The position numbers and the translations under genes are program-made. Positions 7,036 through 32,541 of a stretch of 32,541 nucleotides of DNA are shown here, piece by piece. Source of the stretch: a virus. Numbering within the stretch: position 1 is the first letter of the stretch; the number at the start of each line of letters is the position of its first letter. The stretch spans positions 1 to 32,541 of IMG/VR virus record IMGVR_UViG_3300036814_001206; one strand, 5' to 3'. A model generated the notes under the pieces. It saw only the letters and a program-made list of their open reading frames with translations, did no database searches and was not told where the DNA came from.

Positions 7036-7311
7036 ATGGACAACCAGAGAGATTATCAAAAAAGCAGTCTTGAGAAGGCAATCAAGATATATGGCAATAG
7101 CAAAGAGGCATTATGCGAACAATTAGGAATTACTAAGCATCATTTACATTATTATTATGGGCCAAAGTCTAAGGGATTGCTCCAACCGCATCATTGTTTG
7201 AGACTAACTGAGCTTTTTCCTACCTGGTTTATGGCTGAAAGATTACACCCTAATGTATATCCAGCTGACGTGGCCAGATTAATTAGAAAAAAACTTAAAT
7301 CAAAAAAATAG
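7036..7311 (+). CDS. YdaS/Cro-like helix-turn-helix regulator
   Basis: The gene encodes 91 residues. The pattern LEKAIKIYGNSKEALCEQLG, then ITKHHLHYYY, followed by a basic loop and the C-terminal ERLHPNVYP, matches the Cro/YdaS family, whose members end the domain with R-P-x-x-Y/W-P (family knowledge). The ribosome site is GAGGGG, 9 bases ahead of the ATG. It is the first gene rightward from paired divergent promoters, so it probably controls both the replication operon and its own. No larger CI-like repressor is visible, so it may be the only lysis-lysogeny regulator, or a Cro whose partner is missing. Confidence 0.7.
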   Translation: MDNQRDYQKSSLEKAIKIYGNSKEALCEQLGITKHHLHYYYGPKSKGLLQPHHCLRLTELFPTWFMAERLHPNVYPADVARLIRKKLKSKK

Positions 7312-12524: not shown

Positions 12525-12548
12525 GGGCGGGTTGCGGCCGCCCGTTTT
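12525..12548 (+). terminator. Intrinsic terminator of the early operon
   Basis: GGGCGG (12525-12530) pairs with CCGCCC (12538-12543) across a seven-base loop, followed by GTTTT. It lies directly after the stop at 12520 and should end the rightward early transcript. Confidence 0.75.
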
Positions 12549-12737: not shown

Positions 12738-13409
12738 ATGAGAAAGTATATTAAAAAATTAATGGTATTAGTTGTATTTTTTGCTATAAATATAGCAAAT
12801 GCAGATAATCTTTATATGGGCGTGCAGGGAGGATGGGAAAATTTAACAATGGAAGGTAATTTATCATTGTTACCTCAGCCACTTCCTACCACCATCATAG
12901 TGCCATATCATAGCAAATCAAACAGCGGCATGTTTGATTTTTATCTTGGAGTTCAAAAGAAAGTCTCAAAACGTATACTAATTGCTGAAGAATGGGACAT
13001 CTTAGTGCCATTAGGGAAAACCAGTGTAGAACATTATGGTACAGTGGCAGATCAAAAATTTTCTTACAATTTGGGAGCAAGTTTGAAGTTTGGATTTTTT
13101 TATAATAAAAACGGAAATGTGTATGCTCGTGGTGGATTAGGGGTTGGTAGCTTTGCGGGCGGAATAACCAAACAGGGTGGTGCAACTGGACTATTTCCCA
13201 CGGTTAAGGGTGATAAGATTTTCTACTACCGCGTAGGATTAGGATTGAACCAACAGTTTAGTGATCATTGGTCAGCGCACCTAGAATACGACTATTACAA
13301 ATATTCCCCTTTTAGCTTGAGCAAATTTTCGTATTGGACTAATGTAATAACTAAAATTCGCCCTTCAATGAATGTTTTAATGGGTGGTTTAAATTATATT
13401 TTTAACTAA
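12738..13409 (+). CDS. Phage-encoded outer-membrane beta-barrel protein
   Basis: The gene encodes 223 residues. A signal peptide with Lys-rich start and hydrophobic core ends at ANA-D (about residue 22). The mature part alternates hydrophobic and polar residues with many Gly and aromatics (LYMGVQGGWE, FDFYLGVQKK, NVYARGGLGVGSF, FYYRVGLGLNQQF, SAHLEYDYYKY, MNVLMGGLNYIF), consistent with an eight-stranded OmpA- or Lom-type barrel ending in the outer membrane. AAGGAG lies ahead of the ATG. Such phage barrels alter the lysogen surface, for example masking receptors or aiding adhesion (known for Lom-like proteins; inferred here). It leads a cassette of coupled genes. Confidence 0.8.
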   Translation: MRKYIKKLMVLVVFFAINIANADNLYMGVQGGWENLTMEGNLSLLPQPLPTTIIVPYHSKSNSGMFDFYLGVQKKVSKRILIAEEWDILVPLGKTSVEHYGTVADQKFSYNLGASLKFGFFYNKNGNVYARGGLGVGSFAGGITKQGGATGLFPTVKGDKIFYYRVGLGLNQQFSDHWSAHLEYDYYKYSPFSLSKFSYWTNVITKIRPSMNVLMGGLNYIFN

Positions 13410-13419
13410 GGGGGAAAGA

Positions 13420-13770
13420 ATGAAAGCTAGATTTTTAACTATATTACCAATTATATCTCTATTGACAGGCTGCATGAACATGCCAACACCGCCAATTGAG
13501 ATAACAGCAACCTATGTAACACCTGTCACTTATGAAACAATGACGTGCAAGCAGTTATTCATAACAATGAATGCTTTAAAAGAACAGGAAACGAATCTTG
13601 TTTTTGCGCAGACTCAGCGTATAAAAGATAGTAAAGTACAGGCTTTTTGGTGGGGTACAGGAAAGGGTGACGGAATAGCAGCACCAGAGATAGCCCAGAC
13701 TAAGGGGAAAATTGTAGCTGTTGAGAAGGCTGTCAAGAAAAATAATTGCAGACAAAGGGGAAAGAAATGA
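13420..13770 (+). CDS. Small lipoprotein
   Basis: The gene encodes 116 residues. The signal peptide ends in the lipobox LLTGC with Cys 18, and the next residue is Met, so outer-membrane sorting is expected. The mature part has TCKQLF, a Gln- and Lys-containing helix, an AFWWGTGKGDG turn, then a helix ending KKNNC. This pattern matches a family of small proteobacterial and prophage lipoproteins with two conserved Cys and an F-W turn (recognised by layout). Its ATG lies 10 bases after the barrel stop and has a GGGGGAAAG ribosome site. The stop overlaps the next start (ATGA). Confidence 0.78.
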   Translation: MKARFLTILPIISLLTGCMNMPTPPIEITATYVTPVTYETMTCKQLFITMNALKEQETNLVFAQTQRIKDSKVQAFWWGTGKGDGIAAPEIAQTKGKIVAVEKAVKKNNCRQRGKK

Positions 13771-14063
13771 CATTTAAAGGATGGATGAGCCTATGGGTGA
13801 GCGACGTAATAGATGCTGTTGACGAGCATTGTACACAGAGAATAGACAAACTTGAACGCTCAATAAAAACAAGATTGGTTAAATTACACCATCTTCAATC
13901 TGAGATTACAAGATTAGATACCTCAATCGGTCTGACTGACTATGCTGTTGAGGTGCGCCTTAATAAAATTGAGCGCGACATAGAGGATATTATTAAGCAC
14001 GACTATATTAGAAGCAATCACGGCATAATTAAAGCAACTGATTGGTATAAGGAGGAAAAATGA
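13767..14063 (+). CDS. Coiled-coil protein coupled to the lipoprotein
   Basis: The gene encodes 98 residues from the ATG at 13767, which overlaps the lipoprotein stop. The region from about 25 to 80 is a probable coiled coil (RIDKLERSIK, HHLQSEITRLD, LNKIERDIEDI). The end YIRSNHGIIKATDW resembles the end of the 56-residue gene at 14329 (YIKSN), and both have a start resembling ID-x-LER. They may be distant duplicates. No signal peptide is seen. It flanks the portal-fragment gene and overlaps it by four bases. Confidence 0.65.
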   Translation: MTFKGWMSLWVSDVIDAVDEHCTQRIDKLERSIKTRLVKLHHLQSEITRLDTSIGLTDYAVEVRLNKIERDIEDIIKHDYIRSNHGIIKATDWYKEEK

Positions 14064-14332
14064 CTGAAGAGATTAATAAAAAAAATATATATCAACTTGT
14101 AAATCTTCCGGTCAAATACATTGAGAACGAATGGCCCCATGCTAAGTTGACGAGAAAACTTAAAAGTTTAATAGTGAGTGATCCTAATATGGTTGTAGAA
14201 ATCGTCGAGGGTTCTATGTGGTTATCTGATCAAATATTGACTGAAGAAAAAAGATGGTGTTATTTTTTATATTGCATAAATCATAAATCGTTTTTATCCA
14301 AAGAAATTACCAAAAAAAGGGGGAATATATGA
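14060..14332 (+). CDS. Stand-alone portal-protein fragment homologue
   Basis: The gene encodes 90 residues, with ATG overlapping the previous stop (ATGA) and GGAGG 5 bases ahead. Residues 10-82 align along their whole length with residues 175-246 of this phage's portal. Shared positions include W-P-x-A-x-LT, D-P, VEI-x-EG and WCYF, about 23 identities in 73 aligned positions with one two-residue gap. It lies on the opposite strand from the portal and in an accessory cassette with barrel and lipoprotein genes. The reading frame is intact and coupled at both ends, so it is not debris. A plausible role is interference with portal assembly of a competitor, but this is inference. Confidence 0.8.
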   Translation: MTEEINKKNIYQLVNLPVKYIENEWPHAKLTRKLKSLIVSDPNMVVEIVEGSMWLSDQILTEEKRWCYFLYCINHKSFLSKEITKKRGNI

Positions 14333-14499
14333 GTGATGATATAAATTTAAAATCAAAAATAGACTCACTGGAAAGATTAATAATGACACTCAACGGTGAG
14401 ATGATACTACTTAGAGGAAGAGTTGATGAGTTGGAAGACCAACTGGACTCAGTCTACATCAAGTCAAACATAGTATCTCATGAGCCAGGGACAATATAG
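14329..14499 (+). CDS. Short coiled-coil protein
   Basis: The gene encodes 56 residues and starts within the stop of the portal-fragment gene (ATGA), with GGGGGAA ahead. It is almost entirely heptad-like (KIDSLERLIM, RGRVDELEDQLD), followed by YIKSNIVSHEPG. The end resembles that of the coiled-coil protein at 13767, suggesting duplication or shared partners. It is the last gene of the cassette; a hairpin overlaps its stop. Confidence 0.65.
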   Translation: MSDDINLKSKIDSLERLIMTLNGEMILLRGRVDELEDQLDSVYIKSNIVSHEPGTI

Positions 14500-14564: not shown

Positions 14565-14648
14565 ATGGATAGTTTACCTTTCTCAACTTTAATATTTGGT
14601 GTAATTTTACCAACCATGGGCATTATCTACATTCTATACTCAAAATAG
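14565..14648 (+). CDS. 27-residue hydrophobic micro-protein
   Basis: The gene encodes 27 residues. The ATG has GGAG five bases upstream and lies 32 bases after the extended -10. After six polar or small residues comes one hydrophobic stretch, STLIFGVILPTMGIIYILY (about 7-25), ending in Ser-Lys, a likely single membrane span. Similar peptides include small holins, membrane toxins and regulators of membrane proteins; the sequence does not decide among them. Confidence 0.5.
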   Translation: MDSLPFSTLIFGVILPTMGIIYILYSK

Positions 14649-14802: not shown

Positions 14803-16146
14803 TCAAACAGGCTCAGATGACCATGGGTTCTGGTGTATACCACCGCCTGACAGATTATGCTGATTGCTCGTTAGCATTCCCTCAATCCTGGCTTGTGCTA
14901 TCAGCTGCAATGCATCACAACAATGGCTTGCCCAGTTATGGTCAACGCCACCATGTGCACCGTTGATTCCTTCTTTTGCGTGGTATTCCATAATACAGTC
15001 AATTCCATACTGACATTCTGTCTTGTGTATATAAAATTTGCTAAATAAGGCCCGTGTGTGCTCTATAGAAGCCATTTTATCCTTAGTCCTGGGTACCTGC
15101 CTAAAAATTATACCGAGTTTCCTTGCGCGTTCTAGCCTTGATTGTCCTGATGACAGCTCACGCACAGCAATATCATGGGGGGCATAATGATCTCCTAAAA
15201 CATAACCGTACTTATTTCTGTAGTCATGTATATAGTTTATATAATGTTCAAAACCTTGGTTGTTGTTTTCGTAGTAATGAATAAGTCTGATCTCACCATT
15301 TGTACCAAGCTGAACAAGCCAGATTGCCATACTGTCAGAAATTCCGAGATCCCAGAATGAATGCACCGGCAAATTACAATCAACTGGGAAGTCCCCTACC
15401 CTGTTTTGTTCTTCTGCCTGCCTGAGGTATTTGCTAAAGTAAGCGTTGGCGAGCGCCACGTCGAAATCGCAAAAATACTCCTGACGGAGCTCTTCAATAC
15501 TGAGATTGTGCTTATCATCTTCTATCTGCTCGTCGGAGACAATAGGCATACCCTCCTCGTCCTCTGTGTCAGAGACTGTAAGGACAGATGTATGCCAGTT
15601 GTCATCTTCTTTGACTGAATTAAAAAGCTTGTAGCAGTGATTATGTCCTCGTGGAGTAGAGTTAATGAGAAGCCAGCCATTAGTCTCATTAAGTGATGGC
15701 TTGAGGTAGCGGAGCGCAAAAGGAGTCTGGACTGCATACTCAGAAAAGATTATCCCACACGCACTAATTCCTACCAGCTTGTCATAGCGGTTGGCTCCTA
15801 CAATCTGGATAGTACTTCCATTTGTGAGTGTAATCCGAAGCTCAGAGTTATTTATATTCTTAACAAATTCTTTAGGGATGTGATCTATGAAACTTTTTCC
15901 TTTCTTATCTATGCCCAGCCACACCGCTTTTTTTCCCTGCCCAATCTCAGGAAAGACATAGAAATAATTTCCAGTTCTCTGTAATGCTTTACAAATAAGT
16001 ATATTCCAACATGTTTTGTCTTTGCCTGACCTCCTATGCCACACGACAAATCCACGCAGCTTATTTTCTACCAGCATCGCATTCATCAAAGGCATCTGGT
16101 ACGGCCGCGGCTCAAACTGATGCGGTAAGTATTCTACACTCATCAT
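14803..16146 (-). CDS. Terminase large subunit
   Basis: This is the motor ATPase and nuclease that packages and cuts the genome. It encodes 447 residues. The N-terminal ATPase has WHRRSGKDKT (residues 36-45, Walker A) and CGIIFSE with Glu 136 (Walker B). The C-terminal RNase H-like nuclease shows acidic residues in SFWDLGISD, GDHYAPHD and the last HNWASHCCDALQ. The start is one of two adjacent ATGs (16146 or 16143) behind a GGGGGG stretch. It is the last gene of the leftward structural operon, more than 9.8 kb from the small subunit. The length is a little shorter than most large terminases (often 470-600) but the key parts are present. Confidence 0.92.
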   Translation of the reverse strand: MMSVEYLPHQFEPRPYQMPLMNAMLVENKLRGFVVWHRRSGKDKTCWNILICKALQRTGNYFYVFPEIGQGKKAVWLGIDKKGKSFIDHIPKEFVKNINNSELRITLTNGSTIQIVGANRYDKLVGISACGIIFSEYAVQTPFALRYLKPSLNETNGWLLINSTPRGHNHCYKLFNSVKEDDNWHTSVLTVSDTEDEEGMPIVSDEQIEDDKHNLSIEELRQEYFCDFDVALANAYFSKYLRQAEEQNRVGDFPVDCNLPVHSFWDLGISDSMAIWLVQLGTNGEIRLIHYYENNNQGFEHYINYIHDYRNKYGYVLGDHYAPHDIAVRELSSGQSRLERARKLGIIFRQVPRTKDKMASIEHTRALFSKFYIHKTECQYGIDCIMEYHAKEGINGAHGGVDHNWASHCCDALQLIAQARIEGMLTSNQHNLSGGGIHQNPWSSEPV

Positions 16147-30742: not shown

Positions 30743-31462
30743 TTGATAATAAGCTTTTTAAACCAGAAGGGTGGCTGTGGGAAAACAACGCTTGCCCTTA
30801 ATTTTGCATCCTACGTTGCGCGGGTACTTGAAAGATCACCGTTTGACGAGGTCGTTTTGATTGAGACTGACAGGCAAGAGTCCCTTTCTTACTGGCATAA
30901 CACTCGCCTAGACTCAGGAAAAGAATGCCTACAGATTCTATCGCTTCAGAGGGTTAATGCCCTCAGGAGCTTTAAACCATCCAAGAAAAAGCTGTATGTT
31001 CTTGATGGTGGTGGTATTGCAGATGATCTTTGCAGAGCCAGTATCAAACTGAGTGATTTGGTGGTTATCCCTATCAAAGCGTCGCCAATGGATATTTGGA
31101 GCATGGCGCCGATAACCACCTGGATTAAGGAACGTCAAGAGTTTACTGACGGGTCACCTAAATCATGCTATGCCCTTTCTATGACGCATCTAGGATCAAA
31201 GCTTGGCAAGGGGACTGTCGGAGAATTTGATGGGACTGATCTCGATTTAATACCTGGTTCAATTAAGGATAGAGTTATATATAAGAGCAGTGCCATGCAA
31301 GGGCTATCGGTTTTTGATGTGACAAAAGATTACACATCCAATGAGCTTTTGGCCAGACAGATTGCGGAGAATGAAATAAATTATTTGGCAACTAATATCC
31401 TTTCAAGAGTTGAAGTTGCTATACCGGACCCTATAGGAATTGGAGGAACATGCTGTGACTAA
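30743..31462 (+). CDS. ParA/ParF-like partition ATPase
   Basis: This is a Walker-type ATPase that moves plasmid copies apart on the nucleoid. It encodes 239 residues, the usual short type without an N-terminal DNA-binding domain (ParF class Ib, about 200-240). The start is TTG with AGGAGG seven bases upstream. The deviant Walker A is KGGCGKTT (residues 9-16, with the signature Lys 9), the A' box ends in VLIETDRQ, and Walker B is LYVLDGGGI. Downstream lies a ribbon-helix-helix gene in the ParG position. Absence of an integrase makes low-copy plasmid maintenance its likely job. Confidence 0.88.
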   Translation: MIISFLNQKGGCGKTTLALNFASYVARVLERSPFDEVVLIETDRQESLSYWHNTRLDSGKECLQILSLQRVNALRSFKPSKKKLYVLDGGGIADDLCRASIKLSDLVVIPIKASPMDIWSMAPITTWIKERQEFTDGSPKSCYALSMTHLGSKLGKGTVGEFDGTDLDLIPGSIKDRVIYKSSAMQGLSVFDVTKDYTSNELLARQIAENEINYLATNILSRVEVAIPDPIGIGGTCCD

Positions 31463-32269: not shown

Positions 32270-32541
32270 TTATCGGTTCAACTTGAAGTCACCCGGATAC
32301 ATTTCTGTATATTTAGCAATCAATGCTTTTTCAGCCTGGTCGCGTCCTGGTCCGCCCATCTTCTGCATTTTTGCCAATTGCTCACGCAAACCTGACTTAG
32401 TTTCGTAAGTAGGATCGCCGGGTGACTTGGGTACAGATGAGGCCTTGGTCGAGCTGACTAGGGTCATAAAATCTTTTAGGCCCTGAGCTGTGGTGATCCC
32501 ATCCAATATGTCATTCATGCCATCTTCTGTCATTCCAGGCA
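32270..32541 (-). CDS. Capsid scaffolding protein (C-terminal part; starts at 749 across the join)
   Basis: This is the remaining part of the scaffold gene described at 1-749. The frame across the join is open and in phase: the codon boundary at 119 corresponds to 32533. The C-terminal section here is helical and ends with basic residues before a TAA at 32272-32270, as typical for scaffold proteins that touch the capsid through a basic end (family knowledge). The last 127 bases repeat 1-127. Confidence 0.85.
   Translation of the reverse strand, partial: PGMTEDGMNDILDGITTAQGLKDFMTLVSSTKASSVPKSPGDPTYETKSGLREQLAKMQKMGGPGRDQAEKALIAKYTEMYPGDFKLNR
32415..32541. repeat. Terminal direct repeat, right copy
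   Basis: Identical to positions 1-127; see the left copy. Positions 32411-32414 continue smoothly into this copy, so the sequence can be closed into a circle by removing one copy. Confidence 0.95.

Follow-up and report, generated by a model that had tools for sequence, protein, structure and literature searches.

The portal-wing gene and its locus

The window analysed here is a 32,541-nucleotide virus record, namely IMG/VR record IMGVR_UViG_3300036814_001206 at its full length, and because a 127-bp terminal direct repeat lies at its ends the record looks like a complete genome. At positions 14060-14332 of the plus strand it carries an intact open reading frame (ORF) of 90 residues, a free-standing paralogue of the portal wing, which sits in an AT-rich cassette (12738-14499) flanked by the early operon and the late block. 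The phage's own portal, the head-tail connector of 537 residues, is encoded at 1045-2658 on the minus strand (PF12236 E 1e-67; phrog_332 E 4e-67; LME-1 portal 9efk E 7.5e-61), 12 kb from the small gene and on the opposite strand. The initial annotation had described the small gene as a free-standing fragment of this portal in an accessory cassette, a description now supported by homology, phylogeny, predicted fold, simulated neutral drift and genomic context.

BLASTP aligns residues 8-82 of the fragment with residues 173-245 of the own portal, with identity at 26 of 75 positions, positive scores at 44 of 75 and one two-residue gap (E 2e-15). The approximately 23 identities in 73 positions (residues 10-82) first reported for this alignment are thus borne out. 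The corresponding portal segment lies at 1924-2142 on the minus strand, as located by tblastn of the fragment on its own genome, by BLASTP and by the portal model (residues 172-247), and the pair constitutes the sole significant non-self protein match inside the window. The Smith-Waterman score of fragment and portal is 134; the maximum reached in 3000 shuffles is 58. The fragment covers 75 of the 537 portal residues, that is, part of the wing and not the full set of wing, stem, clip and crown found in PF12236 portals.

A profile search for portal similarity had been named beforehand as the check that could overturn the assignment. When the profile was built from the wing segments of other phages' portals, with the own portal excluded, it found the fragment at 30.2 bits (E 3.4e-7, Z=20,000), and 2000 shuffled fragments scored at most 9.1 bits against the same profile. 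Since a profile without the own portal still finds the fragment, the homology reaches portals as a family and not one sequence. When 19,949 ORFs from related loci were compared with the fragment, portals likewise gave the best matches; the 90-residue protein itself matches no Pfam or PHROGs model. The BLASTP E value, the shuffle scores and the match to the profile lacking the own portal rule out chance similarity, and an assembly artefact derived from a second portal copy is ruled out by the protein identity of only about 35%, the opposite strand and the different composition.

Origin and divergence

A tree of 65 wing segments was computed with IQ-TREE, with FastTree as a second method. The fragment is placed as sister to the own portal with support of 100/98 in IQ-TREE and 0.993 in FastTree, and the two end branches in the IQ-TREE tree are unequal, near zero for the own portal and 2.15 changes per site for the fragment. 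Grouping the fragment with MEP301-type portals is 17 log units worse, an arrangement that the approximately unbiased (AU) test does not strictly reject (p-AU 0.086). The 26 identities divide into 13 that follow the family consensus and 13 that are features of the own portal differing from the consensus of other portals; W66, F69 and F78, for example, are common to fragment and own portal and occur in 0-2% of other portals. Only three positions were found at which the fragment agrees with the portal family against the own portal. The sister placement together with the 13 non-consensus identities indicates that the fragment was most likely derived from a portal of its own lineage, after which it diverged rapidly. 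A GC content of 30%, vs 49% for the portal gene, fits the AT-rich cassette.

Predicted structure of the fragment

An AlphaFold2 (AF2) model of the fragment, built with portal segments in the alignment, has a predicted local distance difference test (pLDDT) score of 84 overall, rising to about 95-97 for residues 11-50 and to 94 for residues 71-80. The predicted fold is a compact beta-alpha-alpha-beta-beta-beta domain, in which strands and helices follow the same order as in residues 172-247 of a model of the whole portal. The initial annotation had proposed such a prediction, and the AF2 fold of the fragment indeed matches a subdomain of the portal wing.

Structural alignment with VIA-align returned portals as the top matches, namely LME-1 (residues 196-272, Z 7.1), Carin1, PhiM1, T7 gp8 (172-248) and the PhiV-1 portal of entry 8dgf (173-248), which is in complex with Avs4. 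The P22 portal gave a weak match over residues 163-295 (Z 3.8). The PhoQ sensor and hot-dog thioesterases, which also appeared as structural look-alikes, were rejected, as portals rank first and the sequence homology is to portals.

In the whole-portal model a long helix, taken as the stem, begins near residue 274, and in the T7 portal the stem helix alpha-7 carries D275 and D278 (PMC6702177). On this description of the T7 domains the matched piece belongs to the wing of T7-type portals, and the fragment is predicted to comprise one portion of the wing's beta-sandwich together with two short helices, separated from the remaining portal. The stem, the clip, the crown and the N-terminal wing helices all lie beyond it, and the fragment alone cannot form a portal channel. 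On the evidence of sequence, phylogeny and prediction, the gene almost certainly encodes a partial paralogue of its lineage's portal that consists of one wing subdomain and folds as a protein of its own.

Maintenance of the gene

The sequence 'aaggagg', a strong ribosome-binding site, precedes the fragment's ATG. Coupled starts had been claimed on both sides of the gene, and ATGA overlaps are present at both, with the upstream stop (14061-14063) and with the downstream start (14329). The portal segment was mutated by simulated neutral drift to the observed identity in 400 runs, of which 2 (0.5%) remained free of stops. The replacements actually observed are also milder, with a mean BLOSUM score of -0.19 vs -0.74 (sd 0.24) under drift. 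A dead remnant drifting neutrally is therefore unlikely, and the simulation, the ribosome-binding site and the coupling support the earlier claim that the fragment has been kept as a gene.

Search for other free-standing copies

Searches of IMG/VR with the fragment's own peptides returned no other free-standing copy, and neither did tblastn against the 50,697 phage records of INPHARED. A profile search of 42 related records, many of them incomplete, found one wing segment in each, always within a full-length portal frame. An ORF scan of 109 loci yielded no significant other copy; a 106-residue ORF at E 0.66 in that scan was taken as noise. Genome-contig searches found no match with the own portal as query, and eight distant portals with the alignment as query. 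Two IMG/VR contigs derive from nearly the same virus, with the cassette region outside their coverage.

The accessory cassette

The cassette opens with a gene for an outer-membrane beta-barrel protein of 223 residues (12738-13409, plus strand), whose match to PF13505 (E 2e-6, 28.4 bits) falls just under the cut-off of 28.7. It is followed by a small lipoprotein of 116 residues (13420-13770, plus strand), with an LTGC lipobox read from the sequence and no family above cut-off. These two genes (12738-13770) are candidates for a change of the host surface or for superinfection exclusion. Next comes a heptad-like protein of 98 residues (13767-14063, plus strand; a longer form with a TTG start at 13746 is possible), whose stop overlaps the fragment's start and for which no relatives were found; its weak match to PADLOC RT_UG36 was judged to be chance, and PADLOC gave no match for the fragment. 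Downstream, the start of a 56-residue coiled-coil-like protein (14329-14499, plus strand) overlaps the fragment's stop. For the cassette proteins tested, catalogued phages offered no credible relative; the fragment returned only the MEP301 portal at E 0.5.

A GC-rich hairpin with a T-run, terminator-like on both strands, closes the early operon before the cassette (12525-12543). The number of terminator-like sites found equals chance expectation; the placement of this one just after the stop of a 112-residue gene is suggestive. No clear sigma-70 promoter was found before 12738. From its position, we take the cassette, with its envelope and small cytosolic proteins, to be a set of accessory (moron) genes, the junction of early and late regions being a usual place for such genes. 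Downstream of the cassette, before the convergent gene for TerL (14803-16146, minus strand), a 27-codon ORF (14565-14648, plus strand), MDSLPFSTLIFGVILPTMGIIYILYSK, reads like a single membrane-spanning peptide.

The genome and its portal

The best solved relative of the own portal is orf12 of LME-1 (9efk). The nearest catalogued phage portal, that of Methylophilales phage MEP301, is only about 30% identical, and portals returned by an IMG/VR profile scan are at most 33% identical; given the distance to MEP301, the virus appears to belong to a poorly sampled lineage. Two PHROGs of unknown function, phrog_21528 and phrog_21643, align with the own portal, one with its N-terminal part (24-215) and one with its C-terminal part (280-518), so that some catalogued phage proteins are portal halves, perhaps from split or interrupted portal genes.

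Further genes of the record encode a TerS-like protein, tail proteins, RecE, Erf, a DnaD-like loader and a ParA-like protein. A probable scaffolding-protein gene runs across the joined record ends on the minus strand (32273-32541 plus 3-749), with 308 codons from stop to stop, beyond a small gene that follows the portal; this assignment by gene order was made because MEP301 has a capsid assembly protein at the corresponding place. The ParA-like partition protein (30743-31462, plus strand) matches phrog_164 (E 1e-27) and AAA_31, and no integrase turned up among the window proteins scanned. Because of the ParA-like protein, the terminal repeat and this lack of an integrase, the phage may be kept as a plasmid. 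The region 7036-7311 (plus strand), divergent from the DnaD-like gene, has a weak match to YdaS and CI-repressor helix-turn-helix proteins (E 0.007 and 0.05) and is a possible switch region.

Possible functions of the free wing piece

In the explanation that we favour, a piece of the portal wing was almost certainly duplicated into the cassette, where it diverged fast and was retained as a separate, translated, folding protein. The free piece would then stand in for a wing where a portal subunit meets its neighbours or the scaffolding protein, and a related phage entering the same cell would be hindered in assembling its portal ring or in incorporating the portal. Strong divergence from the own portal would limit self-harm. 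That the piece poisons portals of relatives, as the initial annotation had suggested, is thus a possibility. Taken whole, as origin plus interference, this is the best explanation at hand, advanced tentatively as one that falls somewhat short of probable. Interference with portal-ring assembly or with the portal-scaffold contact of relatives is for us the favoured mechanism, a serious but doubtful possibility. The most specific version, in which a portal subdomain has been turned into a free inhibitor of portal-ring assembly or incorporation and serves as a weapon in superinfection, is unlikely to be correct in full. The timing of expression, the binding partner, the interference and its target are the parts that we infer.

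The P22 portal offers a precedent for such contacts. The C-loop of the P22 scaffold sits in the inter-wing cleft at Met179, Phe187, Tyr191, Leu292 and Val474, and at Ile266 of the next subunit (PMC12005531), and the P22 wing controls both ring size and portal incorporation (PMC13386823). Since the P22 wing binds scaffold and controls ring size, a free wing piece could occupy the contacts with scaffold or neighbouring subunits. Met179, Phe187, Tyr191, Leu292 and Ile266 fall inside the P22 range that the fragment model matches weakly.

Several points weigh against interference. An arginine conserved in 97% of portals has been lost (R177 to Q12), and given this loss and the low identity to the own portal, one cannot count on the fragment binding to the portal or the scaffold. 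Portal assembly can also tolerate bad partners, since full-length P22 portals with wing tryptophan mutations are recessive when mixed or co-expressed with wild type (PMC9320234). The free-standing gene is known from one genome only, and no relative carrying it was found, which leaves no comparison from which selection on the fragment could be estimated; by codon statistics its frame (0.114) does not stand out from another (0.121). Finally, the agreement of the predicted folds is supportive and not fully independent, because portal segments were fed into the AF2 alignment.

The lost arginine would equally be expected of a copied wing piece that folds and has no link to portal assembly, either serving an unrelated role in the cassette or persisting as a captured fragment not yet lost. 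The fragment's long branch, its GC content, which is the make-up of a long-resident gene of an AT-rich cassette, and the failure of the searches above to find another phage with such a gene all favour this alternative. Against it, the core motifs are kept, the substitutions are conservative, stops are absent beyond neutral expectation, and the gene has a strong ribosome-binding site and coupling. We regard a repurposed or idle domain as a live possibility that we would not call probable.

That the own portal is the closest relative of the fragment, and that the wing-scaffold contact matters in P22 assembly, would also fit an assembly factor of the phage itself, one that adjusts how many portal rings form or when they do so, for instance by sequestering monomers of portal or scaffold, or that enters the virion as a minor component. 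The gene lies outside the late, minus-strand morphogenesis block, in a plus-strand cassette with membrane proteins, and related phages with a portal of this family lack the gene, to the extent that their records show, which makes such a role improbable. Least likely is a decoy that binds portal-sensing defences (Avs4-type STAND proteins or SpbK) without activating them: the fragment model aligns to the PhiV-1 portal within the Avs4 complex, but SpbK uses the clip domain and Avs4 contacts stem and clip as well as part of the wing, the fragment has neither stem nor clip, and a portal piece could trigger the sensor instead of blocking it.

If, as in the favoured explanation, the wing piece interferes, it would be an encoded inhibitor of the procapsid-nucleating step made from the portal itself, and would provide a direct handle on portal-ring formation and incorporation. 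Phages, and not satellites alone, would then be using parts of structural genes as weapons against competitors. If there is no interference, the gene still shows clearly that a subdomain of a portal has survived by itself, which suggests that the wing module can fold independently.

Comparison with known systems

The initial annotation had held that no system of this kind is described. In a limited search of the open-access literature we found no free-standing portal piece with an interference role, so that the statement stands for portal-derived proteins; it does not extend to structural-protein homologues in general, as Ccm and CpmB are described. With PF12236 portals (LME-1 orf12, and T7 gp8 by structure) the fragment shares homology to wing residues 173-245 and, as predicted, the same subdomain fold. 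Tail-assembly inhibitors (Tai) are encoded by prophages and phage-inducible chromosomal islands and block virion assembly of other phages (PMC11364771); they resemble the fragment in being accessory genes, with the tail as their target.

Ccm of SaPIbov5-type staphylococcal islands is a satellite-carried capsid-protein homologue that redirects assembly (PMC8569155). Its fold is the HK97-like one of capsid proteins, with a delta domain, and it becomes part of the capsid. Like Ccm, which acts on virion assembly, the fragment is homologous to a structural protein of phages and is maintained on a mobile element; unlike Ccm, it corresponds to 75 residues of a portal, belongs to a phage with a complete portal of its own, and has a conjectural function. 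CpmB of SaPI1, a scaffold-like competitor (PMC5644958), is comparable in being small and in borrowing a short motif, homologous to one in a phage assembly protein, with which CpmB competes for a binding site; unlike the fragment, it has a C-terminal RIIK motif in common with the scaffolding protein, acts on the capsid protein and has no relation to portals. The present genome, with its own TerL, TerS-like, portal and tail genes, is not that of a helper-dependent satellite. The fragment nevertheless combines homology to an assembly protein with a location outside the structural operon, as Ccm and CpmB do, and satellite-encoded structural-protein homologues of this type are its nearest known kind.
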